Shown: in pieces, positions 4,682 to 33,020 of the stretch | Layout of the letters: each line of letters begins with the position of its first letter | Position numbering within the stretch: position 1 is the first letter of the stretch | Source of the DNA: an uncultured Alphaproteobacteria bacterium | GTDB lineage: Bacteria > Pseudomonadota > Alphaproteobacteria > HIMB59 | Length of the DNA: 64,000 nucleotides | NCBI GenBank assembly: GCA_902599405.1 | Contig: CACKFO010000001.1 | Coordinates: forward strand, 62,001 to 126,000 | Direction of reading: 5' to 3' | Position numbers and translations under genes: made by a program | The notes under the pieces: model-generated | Told to the model about the DNA's origin: nothing | Database searches by the model: none | The model's input: only the letters and a program-made list of their open reading frames with translations

Positions 4682-4710
4682 CTTCCTCTTTCTTTATAGC
4701 TAATTAAAAA

Positions 4711-16735: not shown

Positions 16736-17520
16736 GCTACAGATACCTTATTAAGAGTTTGTTTTTCTAAAGACTGGATTTTTTTTTCATTCCAAAAGAC
16801 TAACTCCAAGTTGCCTTTAAAGTCCTCAACCATTGCACTACAGCTATCTACCCAATCTCCTAGATTATGATATGTCTTGTCACCAATTTTTTTTATTTGG
16901 GGATGGTGAATATGACCACAAACAATTCCATCACAATTATTTTTTTTTATTCTCTCAAGACATGCATTTTCAAAATTTTCAATATATCGTTGAGCATCTT
17001 TTACTCGTGTTTTTAAATATCCTGATAAAGACCAATACGAAAGACCAAGTTTTCTTCGACAGAAATTTAAAATATTATTAAACCAAACAGAGTAGTCATA
17101 AAGGACGGCACCTATCTTTGCTAACCATTTTGAATTTAGAACTATTCCATCAAATTCATGCCCATGCATTAAGAGAAGTCTTTTATTGTTCGCTGTTGTA
17201 TGAATTCTATTTTTTCGAACTTTAATGTTTGCAAATGAAAAACCACAATAATCTGAAAAAACTTCATCATGGTTTCCAGGTATATAATAGACTTTGGTAC
17301 CTGAACGTGCTTTTCGTAAAACTTTTTGTATGAAAGTATTAAAATCAGGATTCCAAAACCAATTTTTTTTTAGACGCCATCCGTCTATAATATCTCCAAG
17401 TAAATAAAGATGATCACAATCATTATATTTTAAAAAGTGTAAGAGCTCCTTTACTTTTGAAGCACGTATGCCAATATGAATGTCTGAAATAAATATGGAT
17501 CGATGTTTTTTGATTTGCAT
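16732..17520 (-). CDS. Metallophosphoesterase, probable phospholipase C PlcP
   Basis: A calcineurin-like dimetal phosphoesterase of 262 residues in the COG2908 (LpxH-like) group. Metal ligands are visible in SDIHIG, LGDIIDGW, PGNHDE, MHGHEFDG and CGHIHHP. Such proteins are often labelled UDP-2,3-diacylglucosamine hydrolases, but the relatives next to an agt gene (first shown in Sinorhizobium meliloti) are PlcP, which strips head groups from phospholipids to give diacylglycerol when phosphate is scarce. The downstream overlapping glycosyltransferase, the nearby dgkA and a Pho-box candidate 45 bp upstream favour PlcP. LpxH remains an alternative. Confidence 0.75.
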   Translation of the reverse strand: MQIKKHRSIFISDIHIGIRASKVKELLHFLKYNDCDHLYLLGDIIDGWRLKKNWFWNPDFNTFIQKVLRKARSGTKVYYIPGNHDEVFSDYCGFSFANIKVRKNRIHTTANNKRLLLMHGHEFDGIVLNSKWLAKIGAVLYDYSVWFNNILNFCRRKLGLSYWSLSGYLKTRVKDAQRYIENFENACLERIKKNNCDGIVCGHIHHPQIKKIGDKTYHNLGDWVDSCSAMVEDFKGNLELVFWNEKKIQSLEKQTLNKVSVA

Positions 17521-17564: not shown

Positions 17565-17581
17565 TGTTAAAGTTTTATTAA
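17565..17581 (-). promoter_or_regulatory. Candidate Pho box before plcP-agt
   Basis: The minus strand reads TTAATAAAACTTTAACA, identical over 17 bp to the copies before pstS and before the ATP-grasp gene. Against the E. coli Pho box CTGTCATAAAACTGTCACA the shared core is ATAAAACT with flanking T and A/C positions kept. The box ends 45 bp upstream of plcP and could replace the -35, with TACTAT about 8 bp downstream as -10. Its other end touches the ATG of the SET-domain gene. Confidence 0.6.
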
Positions 17582-18100
17582 ATGGACTCTTCACAAAAGC
17601 TTTATATTAGAAAAAATTCTAAAATTCATGCATCTGGTCTTTTTGCAAAAGCTGATATCAGTGCTGGCACTAGAATCATTGAATATCGCGGGTTAAAGAT
17701 AACTAAAGCTCAATCCGACAAGATTGCTGATGTTCACATAGAGGCAAACAAAAGGGCTAAAACAGTCGGGTCTGTTTACATTTTTACACTGAATCAAAAA
17801 TACGACATCAATGGAAAAGTAACATGGAATTTAGCAAAATATATTAATCATTCCTGCGACCCTAATTGTGAAACTGATATCATCAAAGGAAAAATATGGA
17901 TTAGCGCAATTAAAGATATTAAGAAAGGCGAGGAGCTGTCCTACGACTATGGATATGACATGTTTTGTTTCGAGGATCACCCGTGTCGATGTGGGTCTCA
18001 AAACTGTATTGGATATATTGTTCGAAGCAATCTTAGATGGAGAGTTAAAAAAAGGTTAATTGAAAATAAAAAGTCAAGATTTAACAAAAACTTCACATAA
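17582..18100 (+). CDS. SET-domain protein methyltransferase with post-SET motif
   Basis: A 172-residue protein that is almost only a SET domain, the fold of eukaryotic lysine methyltransferases, also found in some bacteria. The SAM/active-site motifs are NHSCDPN (89-95) and GEELSYDYG (116-124); the zinc-binding post-SET cysteines are CRCGSQNC (135-142) with Cys93-type ligands before it. It is followed by a basic tail. The target is unknown; ribosomal or DNA-binding proteins are possible. Its ATG directly follows the Pho-box candidate, with no Shine-Dalgarno, so it may be leaderless. dgkA starts 17 bp downstream on the same strand. Confidence 0.85.
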   Translation: MDSSQKLYIRKNSKIHASGLFAKADISAGTRIIEYRGLKITKAQSDKIADVHIEANKRAKTVGSVYIFTLNQKYDINGKVTWNLAKYINHSCDPNCETDIIKGKIWISAIKDIKKGEELSYDYGYDMFCFEDHPCRCGSQNCIGYIVRSNLRWRVKKRLIENKKSRFNKNFT

Positions 18101-18117
18101 GTAGTTAAACTTCAGAT

Positions 18118-18465
18118 ATGGATTTTAAAAATAAAAATATAGTAGATGCTTTTTGGTGTTCAATTGAAGGCCTAAAAATTCTCCTTCAAGAAAAAGCAGC
18201 AAGAAGAGAGCTATTATTGCTTCCCTTGTCTGCTCTATACATCGTAATTTTTCAACCGGCTCTTTTGTTCATACTTTGGCTGATAATTTTACCTTTGCTC
18301 ATACTTAGTATTGAGGCTCTAAACACTGCAATAGAATATACCTGTGATAAAATTACTATGGATAAGTCAAACAAAATAAAGAAAGCTAAAGATTTGGGCT
18401 CTGCTGCAATTTTTTTATCTCTAACAGCCTATGGAATAGTTTTATTCTTAGGTTTATTTAATTAA
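18118..18465 (+). CDS. dgkA: Diacylglycerol kinase DgkA
   Basis: A small integral inner-membrane kinase that turns diacylglycerol into phosphatidic acid with ATP. The 115 residues show three hydrophobic segments and the family signature EALNTAIEYTCDKI followed by KKAKDLGSAAIFLSL, which carries the catalytic Glu and nucleotide-site residues. The N-terminal amphipathic part FWCSIEGLKILLQEKAARRELL is also typical. Next to plcP-agt it could recycle diacylglycerol released from phospholipids. It follows the SET gene and precedes a structured intergenic hairpin. Confidence 0.9.
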   Translation: MDFKNKNIVDAFWCSIEGLKILLQEKAARRELLLLPLSALYIVIFQPALLFILWLIILPLLILSIEALNTAIEYTCDKITMDKSNKIKKAKDLGSAAIFLSLTAYGIVLFLGLFN

Positions 18466-18469
18466 TTTG

Positions 18470-18541
18470 GGAAGATTGACATGATTTTTCTACAAGTAGA
18501 GGAGGTCTATGTTTCAATCACAGGGGAAATGCCAATCTTCC
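18470..18541. other. Structured hairpin element between dgkA and arsC
   Basis: GGAAGATTG (18470-18478) pairs perfectly with CAATCTTCC (18533-18541); after one mismatch CAT pairs with ATG. Inside lies a small TCTAC/GTAGA hairpin and the G-rich strings GGAGG and AGGGG. Neither strand has a T-run after the stem, so it does not look like a plain intrinsic terminator. The genes on both sides converge on it. It may be a small RNA, a 3-prime UTR stabiliser or a bidirectional stop; no known RNA family is recognised. Confidence 0.5.
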
Positions 18542-18581
18542 ACCTAATAAAATAATCATTTATATTAAATTAAAGTTAAAT

Positions 18582-19052
18582 TTAGATTAAATTTCCAATT
18601 TCTTTTATTTGATCGATATTTAATAAGTTGTTTTGCTTATAATTTTGAACTAGTGCAAGACATCTTTTTTTAAGAACATTGAATACTTTTAAAAATTCTA
18701 TCTCAGCTTCCTCTTCAGTGCCTTTAAATTTTGCAGGATCAGCTACACCCCAATGTGCCTTTAATGTATTTTTGAGATACAGGGGGCAAGTTTCTCCAGC
18801 TGCATTATCACACACAGTAATAACCAAATCAAAATTAATATCTGAAAAATCATTCCATGATTGACTTTTAAAATTGTCTAGGAAAATTTTATTTTTTTCT
18901 AATGTTTTGATACTTAATGGATGCACATATCCTGCAGGGTGGCTTCCTGCACTATAAGCATTAAAAAATTCTTTCCCATAATGGTTTAAAAGCCCCTCTG
19001 TTATAATTGATCGACAAGAGTTACCTGTACAAAGTACAAGAATTTTAATCAT
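18582..19052 (-). CDS. arsC: Arsenate reductase, low-molecular-weight phosphatase type
   Basis: Reduces arsenate to arsenite through a cysteine cascade in the LMW tyrosine phosphatase fold. The P-loop is Cys8 in LCTGNSCRS, and the redox pair Cys81 and Cys89 appear in VITVCDNAAGETCP, matching thioredoxin-coupled ArsC of the Staphylococcus type. At 156 residues it is slightly long at the C terminus. It starts 1 bp after phoB, as the last gene of the pst/pho run. This makes sense because the high-affinity phosphate transporter also admits arsenate. No arsenite exporter is in the window. Confidence 0.9.
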   Translation of the reverse strand: MIKILVLCTGNSCRSIITEGLLNHYGKEFFNAYSAGSHPAGYVHPLSIKTLEKNKIFLDNFKSQSWNDFSDINFDLVITVCDNAAGETCPLYLKNTLKAHWGVADPAKFKGTEEEAEIEFLKVFNVLKKRCLALVQNYKQNNLLNIDQIKEIGNLI

Positions 19053-19053
19053 T

Positions 19054-19743
19054 TTAATTTTCTGAATCGATAGAGTAGCCAGCGGATCTAACTGTTCGAA
19101 TGAAATCTTTTTCTCCTGTTAAATTCAGCTCTTTTCTGAGTCTTCTTATGTGAACATCAACTGTTCTAGGTTCAACGTAAGCGTCATTTAACCAAACATT
19201 ATCCAATAGTTGCTGCCTAGAATAGACTCTACCTTTATTTTCAATAAAAAATTTTAAAAGATTAAATTCAGTCGGTCCTAAATTTAATTTTCTCTCACCC
19301 CTTGTTACCCTTCTGTTGGTGAGATTAATGTTTATATCATGAAACTTGAGTGAGTCGTTCTCTTCTCTTGCTTTTGTTCTTTTAAGTAATGATTTAATTC
19401 TAGCAAGGATCTCACTTGGAAGAAAAGGTTTGGTTACATAATCCTCTACACCTAATTCAAAACCTCTAATTTTATCATCTTCTTGACCTTTAGCTGTTAA
19501 CATTATAATTGGAATTTTTTTTAGATTATCTTTTCTTTTAATTCTCTTTAAAACTTCAATGCCCGATATATTTGGTAGCATCCAATCTAATAAAATTAAA
19601 TCAGGCAGCCAATGTTCGATCTCTTGGATTGCAGATTCTCCGTCGTATGAAAATTTTATTTGGTAGTTTTGTTGTTCTAAATGAAATCCAATTAATTCTG
19701 AGATTGGTTTTTCATCCTCTACAACTAAAATCTTGTCTGTCAT
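19054..19743 (-). CDS. phoB: Phosphate regulon response regulator PhoB
   Basis: An OmpR-family response regulator, 229 residues. The receiver domain (1-120) has phospho-acceptor Asp53 in LILLDWMLPN and the conserved Lys in DYVTKPFLP; the winged-helix DNA-binding domain (about 130-227) includes TEFNLLKFFIENKGRVYSR-type and VDVHIRRLRKEL blocks. Phosphorylated by PhoR, it binds Pho boxes, most likely the 17-bp sites described here. It overlaps phoU by 4 bp and lies downstream of the pst genes, the usual alphaproteobacterial layout. Confidence 0.95.
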   Translation of the reverse strand: MTDKILVVEDEKPISELIGFHLEQQNYQIKFSYDGESAIQEIEHWLPDLILLDWMLPNISGIEVLKRIKRKDNLKKIPIIMLTAKGQEDDKIRGFELGVEDYVTKPFLPSEILARIKSLLKRTKAREENDSLKFHDININLTNRRVTRGERKLNLGPTEFNLLKFFIENKGRVYSRQQLLDNVWLNDAYVEPRTVDVHIRRLRKELNLTGEKDFIRTVRSAGYSIDSEN

Positions 19744-20423
19744 TCAAAATCAGATTTTTTTAAATCAATATAATGACCTGTAATGTTAAAAATGACCTCT
19801 TCAGCTATGTTAGTAGCATGATCACCTATTCTTTCTAAGGACTTTGCAATTAAAATTGGCTTAGTGCCTTCATCAACAACACTTGTTTCTTTATTGTGCA
19901 TTCTTTCTATTAAATCAGATAATAAAGATTTGTACTGCCTGTCAATTTCTGCATCTTGATTCCATGAGATCCTTGCCTGTACCTCATCTTTTTTAAAAAA
20001 ACTCTCAAGTGTTTGATTAACCATTTTTTGGACACCTTTACCTAAATTATGCATTTGGTCCGTTAAATCCTCGTCAAATGAAGAAGAAATTGAAATAGCT
20101 CTTTTTGCTAAATTTCTAGAGTGATCTCCCATTCTCTCAAGCTCTTTTGAAACTTTGAGGGCAGTGAAAACTAGTCTTAAATCACTGGCAACGGGTCTAT
20201 GTAAAGTCATAATTTCGAAACTTAAATCCCTAACATCTCTTTCCACTTCATCAACTTGTTCATCAAGATTCTGTGTTGTCTGTGCATCAGATGAGTCTTT
20301 AGATTTAATAACATTTACTGCAATTTCAATTTGTTTCTCAACAATATTACTCATTTTAATTAAATTATCTGTAAGATGATTTAACTTTTGTTCAAAGTTT
20401 TTATCTGTGTGTGCTGTTTCCAT
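19740..20423 (-). CDS. phoU: Phosphate transport system regulator PhoU
   Basis: A negative regulator that links PstSCAB to PhoR and prevents excess phosphate uptake. It consists of two PhoU three-helix bundles (about 10-110 and 115-215); metal-binding ExxxD-type positions such as ELERMGDHSRNL and SLERIGDHATNI mark each repeat. The ATG at 20423 (METAHTDKN), just after the pstB stop and preceded by GGAAGG, is preferred over a TTG at 20432. Length is then 227 residues. It sits between pstB and phoB and overlaps phoB by 4 bp. Confidence 0.94.
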   Translation of the reverse strand: METAHTDKNFEQKLNHLTDNLIKMSNIVEKQIEIAVNVIKSKDSSDAQTTQNLDEQVDEVERDVRDLSFEIMTLHRPVASDLRLVFTALKVSKELERMGDHSRNLAKRAISISSSFDEDLTDQMHNLGKGVQKMVNQTLESFFKKDEVQARISWNQDAEIDRQYKSLLSDLIERMHNKETSVVDEGTKPILIAKSLERIGDHATNIAEEVIFNITGHYIDLKKSDFE

Positions 20424-20424
20424 T

Positions 20425-21201
20425 TTAACCAAACCTTCCAGTTATGTAGTCATTTGTTTGTTCTTTATCAGGTTTTGTAAATATCTTACCAGTTTCTCCA
20501 TATTCGACAAGGTTACCTAAATGAAAAAACGCAGTTTTAGATGATACTCGTGATGCTTGAGACATAGAATGAGTTACTATAATAATTGTGTAATTTTCTT
20601 TCAATTCGTTAATTAAATCTTCTATTTTTGCGGTTGCTATTGGATCTAATGCAGAACAAGGTTCGTCCATCAAAATGATTTCCGGTCTTATAGCAATCGC
20701 TCTTGCAATGCACAATCTTTGCTGTTGTCCTCCTGATAAACCGGTAGCAATATCATCCATTCTATCTTTTACCTCTTCATAAAGACCCGCTCTGTGAAGT
20801 GAGTCTTTTACTATTTCATCTAATTCATTTTGAGAAGAAGCAATACCATGAATTTTTGGTCCGTAGGCAACATTATCATAAATAGTTTTTGGAAAAGGAT
20901 TGGGTTTTTGAAAAACCATTCCAACTTTTTCGCGAAGAGTTTCTACCTGTATATCAGGGCTATATATATCAACATTGCCATTCAACAAAAACTTACCTTT
21001 AACATTACAAATATCTATTACATCATTCATACGGTTTAAACATCGCAAAAATGTCGACTTACCACAACCTGAGGGTCCTATAAGAGAAGTTACTTCATTT
21101 TTTGGAAAATTAAGAGCAACGTTATTGATTGCCATTTTTTTTCCATAGTGGACATATACCTCACTTGTTTGCAAAGCATAATTGCTGTTTTGATCTACCA
21201 T
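20425..21201 (-). CDS. pstB: Phosphate ABC transporter ATP-binding protein PstB
   Basis: The ATPase of the high-affinity phosphate importer. Walker A is [21 protein letters not shown], the Q-loop [20 protein letters not shown] is PstB-typical, the signature is [16 protein letters not shown] and Walker B is [12 protein letters not shown]. At 258 residues it is of normal length. It overlaps pstA by 7 bp and is followed directly by phoU. Confidence 0.97.
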
Positions 21202-22445
21202 TTCACCTCCAATTTTCTTCTTACCAACACTGCCACAGTATTCATTATAATCAAAAAAGATAAAAGTAGCATTATTCCTGCAGATGTTTTTTCGAGGAAA
21301 CCTCTTTCAGCGCTCTCAGACCATAGATATATTTGTGAAGGAAGACCAGTGGCAGGGTCGAATGCCCCTCCCGGTATTTCCATCACAAAAGCAACCATAC
21401 CTACCAATAATAAAGGGGCTGTCTCACCCAAAGCTTGTGCCATTCCAATAATTGTTCCAGTAAGAGTACCTGGCAAAGATAAAGGGATTACATGATGAAA
21501 TACAGTTTGCATTTTAGTAGCCCCCACAGCAAGTGCTCCCTCTCTAATTGAAGGGGGGACGCCTCTGAGCGATGCCCTAGATGCTATAATAATTGTTGGT
21601 AAAGTCATAAAACCTAAAACTAATCCTCCAACTAAAGGGACTTGATATGGCATCCCAAAAACTCCAATTAGCATACCTAAGCCTAAAAGTCCGTAAACAA
21701 TAGAGGGAACCGCCGCAAGGTTATTTATATTTACTTCAATAATGTCAGTTATTTTTCCTGGTTTAACAAATTCCTCTAAGTACACAGAAGCCAAAAGTCC
21801 GATTGGAAAAGCAAAACTAAAACAGATCAATAAAGCATAAAAAGACCCCATAAGTGCTCCAAGTATTCCGGCTGTTTCTGGATCTCTTGAGTCTCCATTT
21901 GTGAAAAACCAAAAATTGAATGTCTTAGACATTTTACCTTTGGAGTCTAAAGAGTCTAAGATAGAAAGTTGATAATCATTTATTTTTCGTTGTGCTTCGG
22001 GAACATTTCTTGGATAGTTTCCTTTGACAATTTGGTCAAGATCTGATGAGGCAGATATATCTAAATTGACAGTTTTTCCAATTACATTTGGATTGTTTGC
22101 AATATAATCTCTCAGCTGATAATCAAATTTTCTTGTGTACATTTCTCTGACTTTAATAAAATTTTCTTCATCTAATCCAGGATGGTTTTGGTTAATCACT
22201 TGATCAGCAAGATCAACATAAGATGCTTTCATTATTTCTTTTTTGGAGGAGTTACTAGAAACCTCTATAAAATTTGGGTCAAAATAAACATCAGCATTAA
22301 TAGTTGTTCTAACAAAAGCACCACTGCCGGTAGAAAAAATTTTATACATTAAAATAAGCACGAAGAACAAAGAGAGAGTCATCGCAAACATTCCATAAAA
22401 TTTGAAACGTTTCTCTGCTGCAAGTCTCTTTTCTAAACTACTCAT
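21195..22445 (-). CDS. pstA: Phosphate ABC transporter permease PstA
   Basis: A transmembrane subunit of the phosphate importer. The 416 residues are longer than the E. coli protein because of an N-terminal periplasmic insert between the first helix (about 16-38) and the core permease (about 190-410), an arrangement known in alphaproteobacteria. The coupling-loop region reads [22 protein letters not shown], with the EAA-type glycine. It overlaps pstC by 8 bp and pstB by 7 bp. Confidence 0.94.
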
Positions 22446-23874
22446 ATTTTTCTCTGTACTTTTTTACTATTGTTATAGCAGCAATATTAAGAATTAATGT
22501 CATTACAAATAAAGTTAGGCCTAAAGCAAAAGCAACTAAGGTTTTTGGATTATCAAACTCGACATCTCCTATCAAACTTGTAACAATCTGTGTTGTTATT
22601 GTAGTCGCTGGCTCCAAGGGATTAAAAGTAAGATTTGCTCTTAGGCTGGCGGCCATAACGACAATCATTGTCTCACCTATTGCCCTAGATATAGCTAATA
22701 AAAATGAGCCCATTATTCCAGCTAGAGCTGCTGGTAAAATTACTTTTTTAATAGTTTCTGATTTAGTTGCTCCAATTGCATAAGAACCCTCTCTTAAAGA
22801 TTGAGGAACTGCTTTTATGACATCGTCACTAAGAGAGGAAACAAAAGGTATGATCATAACACCCATCGCTAAACCTGCAGCTAGAGCACTTTCAGCGGAC
22901 ACCGGTAATCCAACGCCTTCACCGACATCTTTTATGAAAGGTGCCAGTGATAAAGCAGCAAAAAATCCATAAACAACTGTGGGTATGCCAGCAAGAATTT
23001 CAATTATTGGTTTAGCTATATCTCTTACTTTTGATGACGCATACTCTGCTAAATAAATTGCTGTTAGCAGTCCTAAAGGAACAGCGACTAACATGGCAAC
23101 AGATGCAATTAAAAGCGTTCCGGTAAGCAAAGGTACAAAACCAAAAGCCTCTTTTAAAGCCTCTTGATCGAAGCCTTCTGATGCATTGATAACAAAAGCT
23201 CTATTGGGATTCCATGCCGTATTAAAGAAAAAGTCCATAAAATTTACGTACCGAAAAAAATTAATGGCCTCGAAAACAAGAGAAAAGAAGATTCCAAAAG
23301 TAATGAATATTGCAATATAAGAACTGCCCTTGATAACATATGAAATTATTTTCTCAACAATTGGCTGTGCATTTAGTTTTCCTGATATTGATTTCGTAGC
23401 CAAAAATCCTAAAAGCACAGGTAGAATAATAAATAGAGTTAAATTCGACCATCCGTAGATCTTGTCAAAATTTGCTAAATTTTTTGCTGCAATTATCTCA
23501 CTCTCACTGGCCATTTTTAAAATTGATTTATCGCCTACGGTCAAATCAATTTCTGATAAATTAACAATCATAGATAGGTTGCTAATCTTATTCATAATTA
23601 AACCGAATTTTCCAGAGCTCCATGTAGCTACATCTGGAAATAACACAGGGGACATTACAAACATCTCTTGAAAGTTTGATTTAAAAATAAGTAAAAAGAA
23701 CCAAATAATTATTGCTGGAAAAAAAACTAAAAGGACAACGTAATATCCATAATAATCTGGAAGAGAGGAAAGATTTTCATTTTTTTTAAATTTTAGGCTT
23801 AATGCTCTTTTTTTACCATAGAAGTAAAAAGAGTAAGAAAGTATAAAAACAAAAACAAGTGATAAATAAAGCAT
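22438..23874 (-). CDS. pstC: Phosphate ABC transporter permease PstC
   Basis: Partner permease of PstA. The 478 residues include an extra N-terminal membrane region (helices near 1-15, 45-65, 145-165 and 185-205) before the conserved six-helix core. The coupling loop is PQSLREGSYAIGATKSETI near residue 370. It begins 80 bp after pstS, beyond a strong hairpin that may lower expression of pstCAB relative to pstS. Confidence 0.94.
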   Translation of the reverse strand: MLYLSLVFVFILSYSFYFYGKKRALSLKFKKNENLSSLPDYYGYYVVLLVFFPAIIIWFFLLIFKSNFQEMFVMSPVLFPDVATWSSGKFGLIMNKISNLSMIVNLSEIDLTVGDKSILKMASESEIIAAKNLANFDKIYGWSNLTLFIILPVLLGFLATKSISGKLNAQPIVEKIISYVIKGSSYIAIFITFGIFFSLVFEAINFFRYVNFMDFFFNTAWNPNRAFVINASEGFDQEALKEAFGFVPLLTGTLLIASVAMLVAVPLGLLTAIYLAEYASSKVRDIAKPIIEILAGIPTVVYGFFAALSLAPFIKDVGEGVGLPVSAESALAAGLAMGVMIIPFVSSLSDDVIKAVPQSLREGSYAIGATKSETIKKVILPAALAGIMGSFLLAISRAIGETMIVVMAASLRANLTFNPLEPATTITTQIVTSLIGDVEFDNPKTLVAFALGLTLFVMTLILNIAAITIVKKYREKYE

Positions 23875-23906
23875 ACTGTCCTATTCCTCTATAAACTGAT
23901 TTTGTC

Positions 23907-23932
23907 TTAGGGGCAAGAAATCTTGCCCCTAA
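23907..23932. terminator. Hairpin between pstS and pstC
   Basis: TTAGGGGCAAG and CTTGCCCCTAA are perfect 11-base arms around an AAAT loop. On the minus (transcribed) strand no T-run follows, so full termination is unlikely. A stable stem placed after the binding-protein gene commonly protects its mRNA or partly stops transcription, raising the ratio of PstS to membrane subunits. Confidence 0.75.
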
Positions 23933-23954
23933 AAATAAGATAATTAATTAATGC

Positions 23955-25031
23955 TTACTTACAAAGTCCGCTTGAAAAAGCGTAACCAGCATCTTTTAAT
24001 GGATGTTTTTTTTCAGCACATGCTGCAATATCAAATCCCATTGCATCTAAGCTGTCAGTAACGTTTCTTACTCTATTGATAAGGTCTGGTACCATAGGTG
24101 CAGCACCAATTTTTGTTAGGTAACCGTTATCACCAATTGCTTCATCACTTACCATCATTTGTGCAAACTCCTGAATGCCAGGTACAACCCCGATGTGATC
24201 TGCTTTTAAGTATATGAAAAGAGGTCTTGCCATTGGATACTCATAAGTTGCAATAGATTCAGCAGATGGTACTACTCCCTCAACAGTAGATGGTTGTAAT
24301 TTATCTCCGTTGTCTTTTAGATAAGAATAACCAAAGTAACCAAAACGTTCTGGATCCTCAACTAGTTTTTGAACAATAAGAGTGTCATTCTCACCCATCT
24401 CGATGATTTTTCCATCTTCTCTGTAATCAGTACATCCATCGTCACTGCCAGTAACTGCTTCTAATGTACATCCAGCTTCCATTACTTTACCATCAAATGC
24501 ATCTCTTGTTCCTGAGGTTGGAGGAGCTACTAATACTTCAATTTTATATGCTGGAAGGCTTGGGTTAATTTCGTTCCAAGTTTGATATGGATTTTCGACC
24601 ACTTCACCATCAACAACAACTTTTGCAGCCATAGCTGTAAAGATTTCTTCTCTTGTTAGAGAAAAAGGTTCTGCTTCGTTGGAGTGAGAAAAAGTAATAC
24701 CGTCATTAGCCCACATCACTTCAATTACGTTTGTTACACCGGCTTCAAGACATAATTTAGCTTCTTTAGCTTTCATTGGTCGTGACGCTCCAGTAATATC
24801 TGGAAATTCAACTCCCACACCAGCACAAAATGCTTTCATTCCACCACCAGTTCCAATTGGGTTGTAAGTGGGGGTTTTAAAACCTGACTCGCCGAGTCTT
24901 TGTGCGTTTACTGTTCCATATGGGTATACTGTTGATGAGCCAACAATATTAATTTGATCTCTTGCAAAAGTTTCAGCAGAGAAAAGTACGCTTACTGCTA
25001 GAGCAAGAAAAGTTAACATAGATTTTTTCAT
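23955..25031 (-). CDS. pstS: Periplasmic phosphate-binding protein PstS
   Basis: The substrate-binding subunit that captures orthophosphate in the periplasm. A signal peptide with cleavage after SAETFA (about residue 23) precedes the mature protein. Phosphate-loop features include VGSSTVYPYG near 31, GTGGGMKAF near 62, GASRPMK near 81 and SGTRDAF near 180. At 358 residues it is close to other marine PstS proteins. It starts 72 bp downstream of the Pho-box candidate and is the first gene of the pst operon. Confidence 0.95.
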   Translation of the reverse strand: MKKSMLTFLALAVSVLFSAETFARDQINIVGSSTVYPYGTVNAQRLGESGFKTPTYNPIGTGGGMKAFCAGVGVEFPDITGASRPMKAKEAKLCLEAGVTNVIEVMWANDGITFSHSNEAEPFSLTREEIFTAMAAKVVVDGEVVENPYQTWNEINPSLPAYKIEVLVAPPTSGTRDAFDGKVMEAGCTLEAVTGSDDGCTDYREDGKIIEMGENDTLIVQKLVEDPERFGYFGYSYLKDNGDKLQPSTVEGVVPSAESIATYEYPMARPLFIYLKADHIGVVPGIQEFAQMMVSDEAIGDNGYLTKIGAAPMVPDLINRVRNVTDSLDAMGFDIAACAEKKHPLKDAGYAFSSGLCK

Positions 25032-25091
25032 AGTTAAGTTCCTTTATGTTGTTTAAATTGAGCTAAAAATATCCATTAGAAGTAAATCTTA

Positions 25092-25119
25092 TGTTACAAA
25101 TATGTTAAAGTTTTATTAA
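25092..25119 (-). promoter_or_regulatory. Candidate Pho box and promoter before pstS
   Basis: The 17-bp motif TTAATAAAACTTTAACA (25103-25119) is followed on the minus strand by a further half-site TGTAACA (25092-25098), giving an 11-bp repeat period as expected for PhoB dimers. CATAAG or TCTAAT further downstream are -10 candidates. The box overlaps the last codons of phoR, so pstS has its own promoter inside the run. This copy is the strongest of the three because pstS is the classical PhoB target. Confidence 0.7.
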
Positions 25120-26381
25120 GCATGCTTTGGAATTGTGATTAAAAACTCTGAGCCTTTTCCAACTTCACTTTTTATGTCAATAAAACCCATGTTTTTATTC
25201 AAAATATGTTTCACAATTGAAAGGCCTAATCCAGTACCACCAACCTCTTTGGATCGAGCACTGTCCACTCTGTAAAATCTCTCGGTAAGCCTTGAGATGT
25301 GCTCTTCTGCAATGCCTATGCCATTATCCTTGAAGGAAATTTCGACATATTCAGTCATATTACTAGTATTCATTTTTTCACGAGCTTTAATTAAAATTTT
25401 AGCACCATCTTTTGAATATTTAACAGCGTTGTTAACGATATTGACAACCACTTGAATAAATTCTTCATGAGGACATCCAACTAAAAGAGATTGGTCTAAA
25501 TTAATATCAACATTTATTTTTTTCTTTAAAATTTTTGACTCCAATGAGTTTATTCCAATTTTAACGGTATTTAATAAATTACAAAATTGGTCATTCTCAT
25601 TAGTTTTTTTATTCTCGATGGAACTTAAACTTAATAGATCATCAATCAAAGAGTTCATTCGATTTGACTGATCTTGAATAATTGAAATAAATTTTTTTTT
25701 ATTTTTTTCATCGTCAACAGTTAAAAGTGTTTCTAAATATCCTATTATTGAAGAGAGTGGAGTTTTTAATTCGTGACTTACATTAGCTACGAAGTCAGTT
25801 CTTACCATCTCAAGATTTTTAATTGCAGTAATTTCTTTAAAAGCAACGCAAAAAAAATCGTTAATTGGAAATCCTGTAACGTCGTAATATCGGTCATTTG
25901 GTATTAATCTGTTCCACTCAAAAATTTTTTTTGATTTAGTTTTAAGTGCGTTACTTAGATTTTCAGACAAAGATAAGTCTCTTAAACCTATTTTAAGGTT
26001 ATCTGCATTTTCTAAATTAAATGTCTCTTTGAAATTATTATTAACGAATATGATATTATAATCGTAATCTATAATAACTATTGAGAGGTCTAAGGAGTTA
26101 AGAATGTCTTGATACTCCAAACTTTGTTTGTCACCAACTTCGATGCGTCTTTCTTTGTCTAAAAGAGTCTCTTCTAAAATATTTCGGACTTTTGTAAATA
26201 ACATATTGTCAGATTTTCTTAGGTCAAAAGTTTTTTTTTCAAGATAGCTCTCAAAGAAATAATAAGAAATGAAATAAACTAAACTCTGAGAAATAATTGA
26301 TATTAAAAAAATATTAATTGAAGTACTAAAAAACAAAAATAGGTTTAAGGAAAGAACAGCAATAGAAAATACAAATAACAT
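25116..26381 (-). CDS. phoR: Phosphate regulon sensor kinase PhoR
   Basis: A membrane histidine kinase of 421 residues that senses phosphate status through PstSCAB-PhoU. Two hydrophobic N-terminal segments (about 1-18 and 24-44) are followed by a PAS domain (about 90-190), the HisKA domain with His203 in FVANVSHELKTPLSS, and a HATPase domain with the N box VNIVNNAVKYS and G boxes DNGIGI and GGTGLGLSIVKHI. It begins 1 bp after ppk and ends in the pstS promoter. Confidence 0.94.
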   Translation of the reverse strand: MLFVFSIAVLSLNLFLFFSTSINIFLISIISQSLVYFISYYFFESYLEKKTFDLRKSDNMLFTKVRNILEETLLDKERRIEVGDKQSLEYQDILNSLDLSIVIIDYDYNIIFVNNNFKETFNLENADNLKIGLRDLSLSENLSNALKTKSKKIFEWNRLIPNDRYYDVTGFPINDFFCVAFKEITAIKNLEMVRTDFVANVSHELKTPLSSIIGYLETLLTVDDEKNKKKFISIIQDQSNRMNSLIDDLLSLSSIENKKTNENDQFCNLLNTVKIGINSLESKILKKKINVDINLDQSLLVGCPHEEFIQVVVNIVNNAVKYSKDGAKILIKAREKMNTSNMTEYVEISFKDNGIGIAEEHISRLTERFYRVDSARSKEVGGTGLGLSIVKHILNKNMGFIDIKSEVGKGSEFLITIPKHA

Positions 26382-26382
26382 T

Positions 26383-28467
26383 TTATTGTTTTTCTATTTT
26401 TTTATAGACCTTTTTGGCAGCAGTGCCTCTTCCTGAGAGACTAGGGTTGGTCATAAAATATTTATGTGAGTCTATTTTTAGTTTAGAGTTTATTTTTTGA
26501 TAATTTCCATCTGAGTCGAGTATCCAAGTATTTTGATTATCGTTAATGGCAGTGTACATAATTTGATATAAAATTTGTTCGTGAACAGTTTTGTTATCGA
26601 TAGGAACTAATGTTTCCACGCGCCTGTCAAAATTTCTAGTCATCCAGTCAGCAGATGAAATATAAATTTTTGCTTTTTTACTGGGTAGTTTATTGCCTTT
26701 TCCGAAACAAACTACACGTGAATGCTCTAAAAATCTTCCTACAATACTTTTAACTTCTATGTTTTCTGACATTCCTTTAACACCAGGAACTAAGCAGCAG
26801 ATACCTCTAATTAAACAAGTAATTTTCACTCCTGCTTTAGATGCTTCGTAAAGTTTGTTAATTATTTCTTGATCAACTAAATTATTCATCTTGATCCATA
26901 TGTTAGCTGGCTTTTTAATTTTTGATAAACCTATTTCGTAGTCAATATGTTCGTATAGTTTTTGTCTTAAGTTATATGGAGAGAAAGATATTCGTTTAAA
27001 ATCTTTTGCCATGTTGTAACTACTCATATAATGAAATAATTTTATAGCATCAGATGCTAGATCTTTATTACAAGTAAAAAATGATAGATCTGTATAAACC
27101 TTTGCTGTTTGAGGGTGATAGTTACCAGTACCATAGTGAACGTAATGGACTAAATTTTTTTTTTCTCTTCTAGTAACTAAGGAAACTTTTGCATGAATTT
27201 TTAGATTTAAAAAACCATACACTACTTGAACTCCAGCTTTTTCCAAATTTGATGCCCACTGTAGATTTTTTTCTTCATCAAACCTTGCTTTTAACTCAAC
27301 AACTGCTGTTACAGATTTACCAGCATCAGCAGCACGAATGAGTGCATCAATGATTGGCGATTGATCGCTAGTACGATACAAAGTTTGCTTAATTGCCACA
27401 ACGTTTTTGTCGTTTGATGCTTGATCTAAAAAACTAACAACAACATTAAAAGACTCAAAAGGGTGGTGTACAACTAAATCCTTTTTTTTGATTGCTGCAA
27501 AACAATCACCGCCAAAATCATTTATTCGCTGTGGGAAACGAGGTTTAAATTTTTTATAATTTAAATTCTTGTTTTTTATATTTCCAAAGACTTCTGATAA
27601 TTGGTCGAACCCCAGTAGATCTTCGTATTCAAAAATTTCATTTTCAGATACATTCAACTCGTTAATGATGAATGATTTAAAATTATTATTAAGACTTTTT
27701 TGAACATCTAATCTGATTACCTGTCCTCTTTTTCTTTCCCTGACAAGTTTTTTAAACTCTCTGATAAGATCGTCTGCCTCCTCCAAAACCTCTAAATCAC
27801 TGTCCCTTATTACGCGAAATAGATTTGTATCAATAACATCAAAATCATGGAATACATCCCCAACATAATTGTTAATTATTGACTCTACGGGATAAAAATA
27901 AATACCCTGTTTATCAATAATTTTAAGAAAGCGTTGTTTTAAATCTGATACTCTCATAACTGAGATAAATTCTTTTTTTGATTTTTTATTTTTAATTTTA
28001 GCGATAAGACACAAACTTAAATTTGGTATAAAGGGCAAAGGGTGTGTGCTATCAACTGTAATTGGTGTCAGAATCGAAATAATTTCATTCAAATAATAAT
28101 TTTTTATGTGGGACAAATGTTTTTTTAAAAACTTATCTCTTAAAATATAGATTTTATTTTTTTTTAATTCTTTTTCAATTTGACCATACGATTCATTTTG
28201 CCTTTTAATCAAACCTCTTGTTAATGAGTCAACAATTTTAATTTGATCCTCAATCTTCATTCCATCAAAACTTTTTTTATTAGGAGTGAGTTTTAACTGT
28301 TCAATTAATCCAGCCACTCTTACTGAAAAAAATTCATCTAAGTTTGATGCAGCAATACTTATAAAATTTAGTCGTTCTAAAATTGGGACGTTTTTATCAT
28401 AGGATAATTCATTTACTCTCTCATTAAATTTTAGCCAGGATATTTCTCTATTAAAATACTTATTCAT
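26383..28467 (-). CDS. ppk: Polyphosphate kinase 1
   Basis: Reversibly polymerises ATP gamma-phosphates into inorganic polyphosphate. The 694 residues start with the family NREISWLKFNERVNELS. Conserved histidines of the two phospholipase-D-like domains are in VHYGTGNYHPQTAKVYTDLS and FLEHSRVVCFGKGNK. Its 5-prime end overlaps sixA by 8 bp and phoR follows after 1 bp, so polyphosphate synthesis and phosphate sensing are transcribed together. Confidence 0.96.
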   Translation of the reverse strand: MNKYFNREISWLKFNERVNELSYDKNVPILERLNFISIAASNLDEFFSVRVAGLIEQLKLTPNKKSFDGMKIEDQIKIVDSLTRGLIKRQNESYGQIEKELKKNKIYILRDKFLKKHLSHIKNYYLNEIISILTPITVDSTHPLPFIPNLSLCLIAKIKNKKSKKEFISVMRVSDLKQRFLKIIDKQGIYFYPVESIINNYVGDVFHDFDVIDTNLFRVIRDSDLEVLEEADDLIREFKKLVRERKRGQVIRLDVQKSLNNNFKSFIINELNVSENEIFEYEDLLGFDQLSEVFGNIKNKNLNYKKFKPRFPQRINDFGGDCFAAIKKKDLVVHHPFESFNVVVSFLDQASNDKNVVAIKQTLYRTSDQSPIIDALIRAADAGKSVTAVVELKARFDEEKNLQWASNLEKAGVQVVYGFLNLKIHAKVSLVTRREKKNLVHYVHYGTGNYHPQTAKVYTDLSFFTCNKDLASDAIKLFHYMSSYNMAKDFKRISFSPYNLRQKLYEHIDYEIGLSKIKKPANIWIKMNNLVDQEIINKLYEASKAGVKITCLIRGICCLVPGVKGMSENIEVKSIVGRFLEHSRVVCFGKGNKLPSKKAKIYISSADWMTRNFDRRVETLVPIDNKTVHEQILYQIMYTAINDNQNTWILDSDGNYQKINSKLKIDSHKYFMTNPSLSGRGTAAKKVYKKIEKQ

Positions 28468-28969
28468 TCTTGTAATTATAACTTTTAAGTCTTTTTACTA
28501 ATTGTAGTTCTTTAATTTCACCAGTATTTTTTTTTATCTCACTCCAGGAATTAATATATAGATTAATCTCGCAAAATGCACATGTTGGAAATTTTATTAT
28601 TTTATCTTTTGCAATATAGTTAATTAAATCAATCAAAGCTGGATTATGACCTACTATCATTAAATTTTTGTTAATTTTAATTTTTTTTATCCATTTAATT
28701 AAATCGTTAAAGTTGAAAGTATATAGTTCACTTTCAAAATTAACTTTAATTGAGTCTTTAAATATTTTTTTGCAAGTCTCTTGTGTTCTTTTTGAATTCG
28801 ATGAAAAAATTGAGATATCTTTAAAATTTAGTTTTTTAAAAATATGCGTTGCCATTACTTTGCAACTAAAAATCCCCCTCTCAGATAATGGTCTTTCATG
28901 ATCGTCTAATTCTAAATTTTTCCAAGAGGATTTAGCGTGACGTAATAAAAATAGTTTTTTTTCAATCAT
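28460..28969 (-). CDS. SixA-like phosphohistidine phosphatase
   Basis: A small histidine-phosphatase superfamily protein of 169 residues. The catalytic motif LLRHAKSSW is at 8-16 and the second histidine is in LMIVGHNPAL near 125. SixA proteins remove phosphate from histidine of phosphotransfer proteins. It is the first gene of the sixA-ppk-phoR run and divergent from ppx with only 11 bp between. A direct role in polyphosphate or Pho signalling is plausible from context but not shown. Confidence 0.85.
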   Translation of the reverse strand: MIEKKLFLLRHAKSSWKNLELDDHERPLSERGIFSCKVMATHIFKKLNFKDISIFSSNSKRTQETCKKIFKDSIKVNFESELYTFNFNDLIKWIKKIKINKNLMIVGHNPALIDLINYIAKDKIIKFPTCAFCEINLYINSWSEIKKNTGEIKELQLVKRLKSYNYKNE

Positions 28970-28980
28970 CTGTTAAATAT

Positions 28981-30441
28981 ATGCAATATAATATGCTTAA
29001 TAAAAAAGATTCTATTGCAGTAATAGATATAGGGTCAAATTCAGTAAGATTGTGTGTATTTAGGGGCAATATGAGAAGCCCTGATGTGCTCTATAATAAA
29101 AAATTTTTTTGTGGGTTAGGTGAATACCTTCCAAAAACAAAATTGATCAGCAAAGAGGCTGAAAAAAAATGTATCAACTCAATAATTTTTTTTAACTCAA
29201 TAATTGAAGAAATAAAACCTAACCACTCTGTCGCTTTGTGTACTGCAGCAATTCGAAATGCTTCTAACAAAAAACAAATTACAAATAAGATACAAAAAGT
29301 TTTTAAGGGAAAAGTTTTAACTTTATCTGGAAGACAAGAGGCCTCCTATGCCACACTAGGCGTTCGTTCTGCAATACCTAGGGCCAATGGGACCATTATT
29401 GATATGGGAGGTGGCAGTCTTGAATTAGCACAAATAACACCACATAAAATTAAAAATATATCTTCTTTTCCTTTGGGTATATTAAACTTCACTAAAGAAC
29501 ATAAAGAGCATAAAAAAATTAACAAAGAAATAAATTCAAAACATAAAAATCAAAAAATCTTCTATTTAATTGGTGGAGCATTTAGGACAATTGCAAGATG
29601 TTATATTTATTTTAATAAATTGCCCTTTAATGAAATACACAACTTGAGTATCTCTCGGAAAAATTTTTATGAATTAAAATCAGAATTACAAAAAATTGGG
29701 ATTGACGACCTACAAAAAATTCCGAAAATTTCTGTCGACAGAATAAAACATATTCATATTGCAATAGAAGTATTGGACAAGGTGTTAAAATTATCAAACT
29801 GCGAGCAGTTTATTTATCCAAGATACGGGATTAGAGAGGGTTTCATTTACGAAAATCTTCCCAAAAAGCAAAGGCTTTTAGATCCAACTGAAATTTCTTT
29901 AGAATTAATAGCTAAAAGTAGATGTCGTTTTTTAATATTTAATAAAAAGACTTTTGCTTGGATTAAAAATGTTTATTTAAAATTTATAAATTTAAAAATG
30001 TCCCCTAACCAACTGAGAGTAATAAAACTCTCATGCATTATTTCAGATTTGGGATGGGAGCAAACAGCCAAAATTAGAGCTTCTTATGCATTCAACCTAA
30101 TATTAAATAGTCCTCTAGTAGGAATAGAACAATCAGAAAAAGTATTTATTGCATATTTAGTGTATTTAAGGCACACGAAAAATATCTTAGACCAAAGGGT
30201 TATTGAAAAAGAATTAAGTACCTATTTATCTTATTTATCAAGTGACGAAAAAAAGTTAGCTTATCAGATTGGGTGTGTATTAAATTTTTTATACTCTATA
30301 ACTAAGGGTTCTTCTTTTTTATTAAAACAGCTTGATCTTAAATCTTTAACATTGGCAGAGCAAAAAAAGGTTTCGTCTATTCAAAAAGTACCAAAATCAG
30401 GCAAAACTGAACAGCTTTATAACCTAATTAGAAAATTTTAA
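28981..30441 (+). CDS. ppx: Exopolyphosphatase / guanosine pentaphosphatase (Ppx/GppA)
   Basis: Degrades polyphosphate from the ends or hydrolyses pppGpp. The actin-like ATPase fold is visible as IAVIDIGSNSVRL near 13, ALCTAAIRNASN near 84, GRQEASYATLGVR near 115, and IDMGGGSLELA near 140. The 486 residues include a C-terminal HD-like helical region. The first ATG (28981) and a second at 28993 are both possible starts. It is divergent from sixA-ppk, pairing synthesis and breakdown of polyphosphate at one locus. Confidence 0.92.
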   Translation: MQYNMLNKKDSIAVIDIGSNSVRLCVFRGNMRSPDVLYNKKFFCGLGEYLPKTKLISKEAEKKCINSIIFFNSIIEEIKPNHSVALCTAAIRNASNKKQITNKIQKVFKGKVLTLSGRQEASYATLGVRSAIPRANGTIIDMGGGSLELAQITPHKIKNISSFPLGILNFTKEHKEHKKINKEINSKHKNQKIFYLIGGAFRTIARCYIYFNKLPFNEIHNLSISRKNFYELKSELQKIGIDDLQKIPKISVDRIKHIHIAIEVLDKVLKLSNCEQFIYPRYGIREGFIYENLPKKQRLLDPTEISLELIAKSRCRFLIFNKKTFAWIKNVYLKFINLKMSPNQLRVIKLSCIISDLGWEQTAKIRASYAFNLILNSPLVGIEQSEKVFIAYLVYLRHTKNILDQRVIEKELSTYLSYLSSDEKKLAYQIGCVLNFLYSITKGSSFLLKQLDLKSLTLAEQKKVSSIQKVPKSGKTEQLYNLIRKF

Positions 30442-30494
30442 TATTAGATTAATATTTTTTTAATTAAAATTACATAATCAATAAATCTAATATT
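30440..30494. repeat. 11-bp inverted repeat before the choice-of-anchor I gene
   Basis: AATATTAGATT (30440-30450) and AATCTAATATT (30484-30494) are perfect inverted arms 33 bp apart, filling the gap between ppx and the next gene. The arms frame the likely promoter. They may be a regulator-binding site pair or the ppx 3-prime hairpin; there is no T-run after the second arm. Confidence 0.45.
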
Positions 30495-30517
30495 CTTTGG
30501 TATTTGGAGAAAAAATA

Positions 30518-32077
30518 ATGAAATTATTATTATCAATGCTTTTAAGCTTTGTTTTTTTCAATGTAAATGCATTGGAACTTAATAAAATCTCAGGCTATTC
30601 AACTTTTTCATGGGACGAAGGTGGATCAGAAATTTTAGCTTACGACTCTCAAAGAAACAGAATATTTGTAACAAACAATCTAACAAAATCTGTAGATGTT
30701 TTAGATATTACAAGATTACCTTATACAGAAAAATTAATTTCAATCAAACCAAGAGCAGGTGTTGGTGGAATAAACAGTGTTGCTGTTTCAGAACAAGCAG
30801 GTTTGCTTGCTTTAGCAATCGAGGCAGAAGACAAACAAGACAATGGTGCTGTTTTGTTCTATAATCTTAATACATTAAAATTGGCTTTTGGGTACTCAGT
30901 AGGTGCGCTGCCTGATAATGTTGTATTTACTCCGGATGGGAAATATGCATTGGTCGCCAATGAGGGTGAGCCAAATGATGACTACACTGTTGATCCCAAA
31001 GGATCTGTTTCAATTATTGATTTAAACAAATGGTTTGTCGGCCCTAGTGAAGATAAAATCAGAAATATAAACTTTTATTACAATGGGGCTCCAGAGGGTG
31101 GCAGAATTGTAAAACCTGGATCATCTTTTTTGTATGATGCTGAACCAGAGTTTATAGCGGTTAGCGGTGACTCTAAAAGAGCTTATGTAGCTCTTCAAGA
31201 AAATAACGTTATTGCAAAGATAGATATTAGTTTGGGCATAGTTACTGATTACTTTGGTTTAGGCTATAAAGATTGGTCTCAGTCCGCTCTTGATGCTTCA
31301 AATAAGGATAACAGAGTTAATATACAGCCTTGGCCGGTTAAAGGAATGTATCAACCAGACACCATGGTAGTTGTCAGTAAAGAGATTAATGGTGAAATGT
31401 ATGATTATGTTTTAATGGCTAATGAGGGAGATGCAAAAGATTACGATGGATTCTCAGAAGAGGTAAGGGTCGCTGATTTAACTTTAGACCCTTCAGTCTT
31501 TCCTAATGCCTCGGAGCTCCAAAAAAAATCAAATCTCGGTAGGTTAAAAACAACTACTACTATGGGAGATGCTGATGGTGACGGTTTTTATGAAGAAATC
31601 TATACCTACGGCGGAAGATCTTTTTCAATTTTGGACGGTAATACCGGACAAATTATTTATGATAGCGGTAATGATATTGCTGTTAGAACAGCGTTTTCAG
31701 GTTTTTTTAACTGGAATGAGGATGCGGGATCTTTTGATGACAGAAGTGACGATAAAGGTGCAGAGCCAGAGGCTCTTACAGTTGGAGAAATTGATGGAAG
31801 AACAATAGCTTTTGTAGGTCTTGAAAGACAGGGCGGTATCATGATGTACGATATTACTGGTATGGTAAAACCAAAATTTCTTGGATATTTTAATGGTAGA
31901 AACTTTTTTGGCGATGGTACAAAACAAACTGGTGGTGACATATCTCCTGAATCATTAGTTTTTATACCTGCCGACAAGACACCTCCACTTTATCATGTCA
32001 GAAAAGGAACTCCTTTATTGATTGGAGCCTATGAACTTTCGGGTTCAACTGCTATTTACGAAGTTATAATTGATTAG
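30518..32077 (+). CDS. Exported choice-of-anchor I family beta-propeller protein
   Basis: A secreted or periplasmic protein of about 519 residues. The ATG at 30518 follows GGAG and opens a clear signal peptide ending near NVNALE; an upstream TTG at 30497 is rejected. The body has YVTN-like propeller repeats (RNRIFVTNN, GKYALVANEGEPNDDY, SKRAYVALQENN) and late blocks YTYGGRSFSI and PEALTVGEIDGRTIAFVGLERQGG, which mark the choice-of-anchor I family. Some family members are fused to or annotated as phosphatases, and its place after ppx invites a phosphate role, but no catalytic site can be named. Confidence 0.75.
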   Translation: MKLLLSMLLSFVFFNVNALELNKISGYSTFSWDEGGSEILAYDSQRNRIFVTNNLTKSVDVLDITRLPYTEKLISIKPRAGVGGINSVAVSEQAGLLALAIEAEDKQDNGAVLFYNLNTLKLAFGYSVGALPDNVVFTPDGKYALVANEGEPNDDYTVDPKGSVSIIDLNKWFVGPSEDKIRNINFYYNGAPEGGRIVKPGSSFLYDAEPEFIAVSGDSKRAYVALQENNVIAKIDISLGIVTDYFGLGYKDWSQSALDASNKDNRVNIQPWPVKGMYQPDTMVVVSKEINGEMYDYVLMANEGDAKDYDGFSEEVRVADLTLDPSVFPNASELQKKSNLGRLKTTTTMGDADGDGFYEEIYTYGGRSFSILDGNTGQIIYDSGNDIAVRTAFSGFFNWNEDAGSFDDRSDDKGAEPEALTVGEIDGRTIAFVGLERQGGIMMYDITGMVKPKFLGYFNGRNFFGDGTKQTGGDISPESLVFIPADKTPPLYHVRKGTPLLIGAYELSGSTAIYEVIID

Positions 32078-32090
32078 TAATATTTATTTT

Positions 32091-32116
32091 ACCCTCTCTA
32101 AATTAATAGGGAGGGT
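32091..32116. terminator. Hairpin between convergent genes
   Basis: ACCCTCTC and GGGAGGGT form an eight-pair stem (one G-U) around a ten-base AT loop, in the 38-bp gap between the choice-of-anchor I gene and the convergent ATP-grasp gene. A-rich sequence to the left gives Ts on the minus strand, so it can serve the minus gene and probably both. Confidence 0.6.
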
Positions 32117-32970
32117 TAGATTAAATAGCTTTTTCTAAACTTGTCATTAATAAGTGCAATAGCTTTTTTTCCATCCTCAAGTGAAATCTTATCTGGCGGA
32201 CCCCAAGCAGTTTTATTGACATCAACAATATAAATTTTTTTCGTATCCCTATCTCTTAAAATGTCTAACTCCCCAAAATCTAGTTTAAATTTTTTACAAA
32301 ATTCATTTATTAAACTAATCTCTTCATTTTCAAATAAAGAACAAATTGAGACTATTTTTGAATAAACAGTTTTAGATTTAAAGCGATATTCTTTTTGAGC
32401 AAATTTCACGTAAGCTAATACAATTTCATCTTTAACCCATACGACCCTATAATCGACAGCAAATTCGTTATAAATATTATTAATTAATTTTTGGTAAACC
32501 TTATTTTTATAAATTTTAAATCCTAACGAAGAACTATTTATAATCTTCCCGTCATGTTTTGCATTTTGCTCTGATTTTTCTAAAATTGAACCATGATAGT
32601 TTTTTGGATCTAAGTTCAGAGAATAACCAAAAATCTCTAAGAAAACTCTATCAACATTAGATTTACTGATGTCAGTGCAATTTTTATTTATTACTATTTT
32701 TTTTGGATTTTCAGAGACTTGGTAGTTACTATTAGTTTTGTCATAAAAATATAATTCTATGTCAGCTAGTTCTGGGGAGGACGTAAACTTAACTGGCAAG
32801 CCCCATCTAACTTTAGCTAAAGAATAAAGTGGATTGAAAGGCCTTCTAGGGTAACAGATTATTTTTTTTTTATTTGATGAGTTAGATTCATATAAGCTAA
32901 TCAAAAAATAAACATCTCTCAGCCCTCGAAGAATAGTACTAATTACGTCTGAAACAGTTATTGATGACAT
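32116..32970 (-). CDS. ATP-grasp-like protein of unknown function
   Basis: A 284-residue protein if the ATG at 32970 (MSSITVSDVIS) is used; a TTG at 33003 would add 11 residues. The C-terminal part resembles the ATP-grasp fold: an acidic strand in DFGELDILRD and the Asp/Asn pair in IYIVDVNKTAWGPP (about residues 231-258) match the Mg-ATP ligand positions. The N terminus reads KKIICYPRRPFNPLYSLAKVRWGLP and looks like a small Rossmann-type part. The gene stands alone with a Pho-box candidate 34 bp upstream. The ligation product is unknown; relatives with a sugar- or peptide-ligase role are possible. Confidence 0.6.
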   Translation of the reverse strand: MSSITVSDVISTILRGLRDVYFLISLYESNSSNKKKIICYPRRPFNPLYSLAKVRWGLPVKFTSSPELADIELYFYDKTNSNYQVSENPKKIVINKNCTDISKSNVDRVFLEIFGYSLNLDPKNYHGSILEKSEQNAKHDGKIINSSSLGFKIYKNKVYQKLINNIYNEFAVDYRVVWVKDEIVLAYVKFAQKEYRFKSKTVYSKIVSICSLFENEEISLINEFCKKFKLDFGELDILRDRDTKKIYIVDVNKTAWGPPDKISLEDGKKAIALINDKFRKSYLI

Positions 32971-33003
32971 AAATTGATTCTTTAGACCATTACATATATA
33001 CAA

Positions 33004-33020
33004 TGTTAAAGTTTTATTAA
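33004..33020 (-). promoter_or_regulatory. Candidate Pho box before the ATP-grasp gene
   Basis: The third exact copy of TTAATAAAACTTTAACA on the minus strand. TATATA or TGTAAT lie downstream at -10 distance for the minus gene. Its other end is the A of the glnD ATG, the same geometry as the copy at the SET-domain gene. Binding of PhoB here could also affect glnD. Confidence 0.55.

Follow-up and report, generated by a model that had tools for sequence, protein, structure and literature searches.

A 17-nucleotide motif, TTAATAAAACTTTAACA, found before a plcP-agt pair, before pstS and before an uncharacterised gene in the 64,000-nucleotide stretch of DNA analysed here (the window), is very probably the operator, or Pho box, of the PhoR-PhoB system in an alphaproteobacterium of the HIMB59 lineage. 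The source lineage is HIMB59 (AEGEAN-169), and the island carried by the window is the flexible phosphate island fGIp described for the order HIMB59 in passages of PMC10734472. The reading is based on the sequence, place and conservation of the motif and on its co-occurrence with genes, from which we infer binding by PhoB, activation and a response to phosphate. The first-pass annotation had reported exact minus-strand copies of the motif at the three places listed in Table 1 and had proposed a lineage-specific Pho box. The copies are there as reported, and the proposal is supported by the grading of the pstS sites, the matrix ranks, the phosphate genes among the targets and the co-occurrence.

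Table 1. Candidate Pho boxes of the window and the genes around them.
Feature	Position	Strand	Basis or remark
Candidate Pho box before plcP-agt	17565..17581	-	TTAATA / TTTAACA; ends one base before SET start codon
Candidate Pho box before pstS	25092..25120	-	Three half-sites TTAATA, TTTAACA, TGTAACA at 11-bp period; 17-mer at 25103-25119
Candidate Pho box before uncharacterised gene 32116-32970	33004..33020	-	Touches glnD start codon
plcP-like metallophosphoesterase, first of box-bearing pair	16732..17520	-	PF00149
GT4 glycosyltransferase, probable agt	15743..16735	-	PF13692/PF00534
pstS, first gene of pstSCAB-phoU-phoB	23955..25031	-	TIGR02136 117.9 bits, cut-off 206.6 not reached; context
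PhoB, proposed binding protein	19054..19743	-	TIGR02154 311.5 bits, above cut-off; DNA-binding domain aligned to 1gxp
PhoR-like sensor kinase	25116..26381	-	TIGR02966 E 3e-86, below cut-off
SET-domain gene, divergent from plcP, not the target	17582..18100	+	PF00856
glnD, divergent from third target, not the activation target	33020..35572	+	PF08335
Uncharacterised 284-aa protein, third target	32116..32970	-	Without family or solved-structure match

All three sites consist of the direct half-sites TTAATA and TTTAACA with an 11-bp period, and the added half-site described before pstS is real. The statement that the copies lie in three gaps needs correction. The sites are not wholly intergenic, two of them overlapping ORF ends or starts: the phoR ORF ends within the pstS site (bases 25116-25119), and the glnD ATG begins with base 33020 of the third site. 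For the third target the ATG at 32970, which congeners share, is a better start than the TTG at 33003. The name plcP is that of the first-pass annotation and rests on the family level and on the plcP-agt arrangement in passages of PMC4796936; NCBIfam matches of the plcP-like protein (LpxH type) fall below cut-off, and for the probable agt NCBIfam gives no match above cut-off. A dgkA-type diacylglycerol kinase at 18118-18465 follows the SET gene, divergent from plcP, and could recycle diacylglycerol made by PlcP.

The corresponding places were found in 60 genomes, and 30 of 44 pstS places, 30 of 45 plcP places and all 18 for the 284-aa gene were read. Same-genus pstS loci numbered 27, from which L060, starting at the gene, was dropped. 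Among the remaining 26, the mismatches to the 17-mer were 0 in 15 loci, 1 in one, 2 in five, 3 in one, 4 in one and 5 in three. By eye the site is kept in 24 of the 26, so that a lack of conservation before pstS in relatives, which had been named as grounds for rejecting the proposal, was not encountered; only G011 and G020 are without the box. The diverged congener pstS sites (by eye) are GTAACAAAACTTTAACA, TTTCATAAAACTTTAACA, TTGTCATAAATCTTTCATA, TTGTCATAAATCTTTAATA, TTGTCATAAAAGTTTAACA and CTGTCATAAAACTTTAACA, and the three sister-family pstS loci read carry TGTAATAAAATTGTAATAAAG (two loci) or the weaker CTGTAATAAATACTTAATA (one). The classical Pho box is of the TGTCAT type. Congener pstS sites shade into this form, CTGTCATAAAACTTTAACAT / TGTCATAAAAC, and the TGTCA half-site letters that are lost in the 17-mer are present in them. 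These graded sites therefore place the 17-mer at one end of a series with the classical Pho box at the other.

The plcP site is exact in 17 of 21 same-genus loci and has one mismatch in the other four; no box was found before plcP in nine sister-family loci. A comparison of the plcP gap between five genomes showed identity in the 17-mer and in the CAT next to it, much of the remainder differing or missing. Before the 284-aa gene the site is exact in 16 of 18 loci and has two mismatches in two. We infer that the identity of the three copies in the window arose by convergence and not by recent copying, because their flanks differ from one another and because in congeners the plcP site keeps its form while the pstS and third-gene sites vary.

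Position matrices were built and used to scan the source genome and its relatives, along the lines suggested with the proposal. With a matrix made from pstS sites only, the third gene ranked 2nd (20.8 bits) and plcP 3rd (20.4 bits) among 64 upstream regions of the window, the next scoring 14.6 bits; the third-gene site in G008 and G025 reached just 9.9 bits. A 15-site model gave three window matches at 21-22 bits, with the next at 13.0, and in 52 same-genus genomes its strongest placed matches were the promoters of pstS, plcP, the 284-aa gene and phnS2. A matrix of 59 E. coli PhoB ChIP-seq sites, taken from passages of PMC10294691, was scored over 127,966 window positions. With the E. coli background, the top rank went to the second half-site pair of pstS, ranks 3 and 4 to plcP and the third gene, and rank 13 to the 17-mer pair at pstS; with the AT-rich background of the window the ranking is less sharp, at 2, 21, 40 and 34 for these sites in the same order. 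A genus-wide test of box against PhoB is circular, because the island sites themselves supply the best model matches and because many of the assemblies are incomplete.

A fourth site in the source genome, the degenerate TTCATAAATATTTAACA, is found on another contig, outside the phosphate island, some 90 nt upstream of a ugpB homologue (L169:3326-3350 and 3438-4745, G000:C16; NF008211 E 4e-76, 256 bits, cut-off 411 not reached). A ugpB match was present in 38 genomes, of which 36 were scored: a TTTCATAA-type site was found 89-90 nt before the ugpB start in 27 of these congeners and was absent in nine, seven of them with PhoB. The site is also present in nine incomplete assemblies in which PhoB gave no match. 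The gene phnS2 (TIGR03261, above cut-off) occurs in six of 52 genomes and is preceded by the box in all six, at 16.5-22.2 bits with the pstS-sites-only matrix; one of the six was in the 15-site model. The second pstS copy of G014, a fragment at a contig end, carries TTTGTAATAAAACTGTAATATTTCTGTAATATTT.

Box-like sites were seen elsewhere too. The variant TTAATAAAACTTTAAAA (one mismatch, 10.7 bits) at L032:1501-1517 (G027) lies in the gap before, and faces, a gene that we take to encode a ribosomal protein S1-like protein. It also occurs in G004, G013, G017, G029 and G032, the gene context given here having been read in L032, and within one mismatch none was found in the source genome. In two diverged genomes TGTAATAAAACTTTAACTAA (18.0 bits in L186) precedes a small ORF (L186:2459-2476 in G016, L188:2311-2328 in G008); no adjoining phosphate gene was seen at either locus, and a further target or a chance match are both possible. 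A 17.1-bit site at L176:19252-19271 lies in the phosphate region of G061 before the gene for a 683-aa protein, which has sub-cut-off matches to oligopeptide/nickel-binding proteins.

The DNA-binding domain of the window's PhoB aligns without gaps with 1gxp. The base-contacting residues of PhoB, given as T194, V197, R201 and R219 in passages of PMC3264566, are all unchanged in it. Despite these unchanged contact residues the 17-mer has lost the guanines of TGTCA, which counts against the Pho-box reading, as do the missing boxes before pstS in G011 and G020, before ugpB in nine congeners and before plcP in the sister family, the ugpB sites kept where PhoB gave no match, the low third-gene scores of G008 and G025 and the irregular -10 distances described below. 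As an alternative to PhoB, the regulator might be another member of the OmpR/PhoB family, KdpE-like, with TTTA-type direct half-sites. TTTAACA and TTAATA do resemble the KdpE half-site TTTA(T/C)A given in passages of PMC3264566, and some assemblies that lack a PhoB match still have the ugpB site. However, it is phosphate genes that bear the box, and before pstS the site passes by degrees into TGTCATAAAAC. The sites are also recovered by the matrix of E. coli PhoB sites, and a single protein of the source genome matches PhoB at E 1e-45, so that a regulator other than PhoB is improbable.

In G011 and G020, the two congeners without the pstS box, pstS adjoins glnD, phoR is absent there, and neither a PhoB match at E 1e-45 nor a pstS box was found, the assemblies being 81% and 79% complete. 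Otherwise their pstS leader is almost identical to the one in G009, a genome with phoR and the box, and divergence sets in at the box; this was probably one event. In the G009 locus itself (L057, G009:C4) pstC seems cut after about 128 aa with trpS directly next to it, either a deletion or a chimeric single-cell assembly. The ugpB site in G011 and G020 persists with one change, scoring 13.0 bits where the common form scores 17.2, and this cuts against a strict rule tying box to PhoB.

With PhoB as the regulator, the following mechanism is proposed. Under phosphate limitation, phosphorylated PhoB would bind the direct half-sites TTAATA / TTTAACA at their 11-bp period, three of them at pstS, and would recruit RNA polymerase to the minus-strand promoters just downstream. 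This would switch on pstSCAB-phoU-phoB, plcP-agt and the uncharacterised gene 32116-32970, and the ugpB homologue would be switched on from the degenerate fourth site. Activation of plcP-agt would lead to replacement of phospholipid by glycolipid. The box would have arisen in this lineage by drift of the classical TGTCAT-type Pho box toward A and T. Hexamers resembling a -10 element (5-6 of 6 letters) are found 8-9 nt downstream of the box in the plcP promoters of G029, G008, G025 and G061, and the hexamer of the window's own plcP promoter fits in just 4 of 6. Both third-gene promoters compared have such a hexamer 9 nt on, with 5 of 6 letters. Among the pstS promoters compared the -10 distance was not consistent, and the best phnS2 hexamer lies 15 nt on.

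The orientation of the sites toward minus-strand genes was as had been claimed, and it is the presence and absence of plcP and of the third gene that ties the box to them and not to SET or glnD. The 17-mer immediately precedes the ATG of SET and overlaps that of glnD, in congeners too, as would be expected of a promoter or start-region element of these divergent genes. Against this, the best score of the pstS-sites-only matrix within 100 nt and with the same facing was 8.4 bits (G061), compared with 20.8 in the window, in 13 genomes with glnD and no adjacent 284-aa gene (nine without the gene; G060, G061, G069 and G073 outside the 284-aa-gene search; glnD start of G012 not readable). Beside SET in seven genomes without adjacent plcP (six without the gene; G072 outside the plcP search) the best was 2.4 bits, compared with 20.4. 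As no box stands beside a lone SET or glnD, the box travels with plcP and with the 284-aa gene. The pstS copy, moreover, has no divergent gene, and an element of SET and glnD is very improbable indeed. An additional role is conceivable for a Pho box that touches start codons: PhoB may also act as a repressor or roadblock for the genes concerned, which we consider unlikely. If true, binding of phosphorylated PhoB at the start of glnD in phosphate starvation would reduce PII-uridylyltransferase and at the same time activate the uncharacterised gene, and one 17-bp site would form a direct link from phosphate to nitrogen, present only in the island versions that carry the 284-aa gene.

The label ATP-grasp, given to the third gene in the first-pass annotation, is unsupported. 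Pfam and NCBIfam gave no match to the 284-aa protein at E 0.001 and none of ATP-grasp kind at E 5; PDB sequences gave one match, at E 0.14 and not of ATP-grasp kind, and the structure model, with a pLDDT of 32, is unusable. All 21 loci with relatives of the gene in named genomes come from uncultured Alphaproteobacteria or HIMB59 (MED-G104). The gene converges with a choice-of-anchor I gene (window 30515-32970), and the two are absent together between ppx and glnD in G010, G027, G073 and G069; from this distribution the pair behaves as an island cassette.

The motif is the sole 17-mer with at least three copies on the two strands of the window, nine others having two copies each. From a first-order Markov model the expected number of exact copies is 0.00035 for the window and 0.007 for 1.26 Mb. 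In the source assembly (1,258,564 bases, 34 contigs, 89.5% complete) the three copies, all exact, are the only matches with at most one mismatch. A reversed control pattern also gave two matches at this level, and therefore it is the exactness and place of the 17-mer that are remarkable and not the count alone. The nine two-mismatch matches in the source genome all touch an ORF, one by its last 4 bases only. Many copies throughout the genome without phosphate genes, which would have spoken against the proposal, were looked for and are absent: there are the three exact copies and one degenerate model match before the ugpB homologue. With up to three mismatches, matches are at background level (94 in the genome against 141 for the control; 5 in the window against 3.2 expected), as for a chance AT-rich repeat or a dispersed repeat element, a reading of practically negligible probability given the expected number of exact copies, the differing flanks and above all its contradiction by the conservation of the same places in many congeners.

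Several other matches were set aside. An exact 18-mer at 26 loci in viral contigs was taken as chance, none having a tblastn match (E 1e-5) to 27 window proteins, ugpB or phnS2, as were model matches within pdhA-like ORFs (four genomes) and within sixA (G025). One-mismatch matches in the sister family were dismissed, those read falling within coding sequence. A 14.6-bit match at 30334, inside the ppx ORF, was not counted because ppx carries the same letters in G010, G027, G073 and G069, where the downstream choice-of-anchor gene is absent.

Passages of PMC10294691 give the E. coli pstS Pho box as TGTCATAAAACTGTCATA, and the core match claimed for it holds, ATAAAACT being identical. Both boxes have two direct half-sites, an 11-bp period and an AT-rich spacer; the PhoB base-contact residues are identical, and pstS and ugpB are targets common to both. 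They differ in that the TGTCA half-sites have become TTAA/TTTAA here and in the extra targets, plcP-agt and the uncharacterised gene. In marine plcP clusters described by Sebastian et al. (PMC4796936, in the passages available) an agt-like glycosyltransferase comes after plcP and a PhoB site is predicted upstream, as here, whereas HIMB59 is named nowhere in that text and the drifted sequence is absent from those passages. The island content of the window fits version E of fGIp as matched from the text of Molina-Pardines et al. (PMC10734472), and genomes lacking both the choice-of-anchor and the 284-aa genes fit version D, likewise matched from text. That paper treats gene content, 'Pho box' and 'promoter' occurring 0 times in its main text. 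It reports that P metabolism has no further genes outside the island, whereas here a boxed ugpB homologue is found on another contig. No report of a HIMB59 Pho box was found among the literature matches listed, and an unlisted one is possible. The Pho box as a kind of element and plcP as a kind of target are already known (PMC4796936, as seen in those passages); what is new is the HIMB59 form of the box, the comparative list of targets and one uncharacterised target.

The motif allows a phosphate-response operator to be defined, in usable form, for HIMB59/AEGEAN-169, an ocean lineage dominated by uncultured members. With this definition a regulon, comprising pst, plcP-agt, the ugpB homologue, phnS2 and one uncharacterised gene, becomes readable from single-cell genomes. 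In this lineage the Pho box would have drifted to AT-rich letters while the base-contact residues of its regulator stayed unchanged, and boxes appear to come and go with the island genes that they serve.
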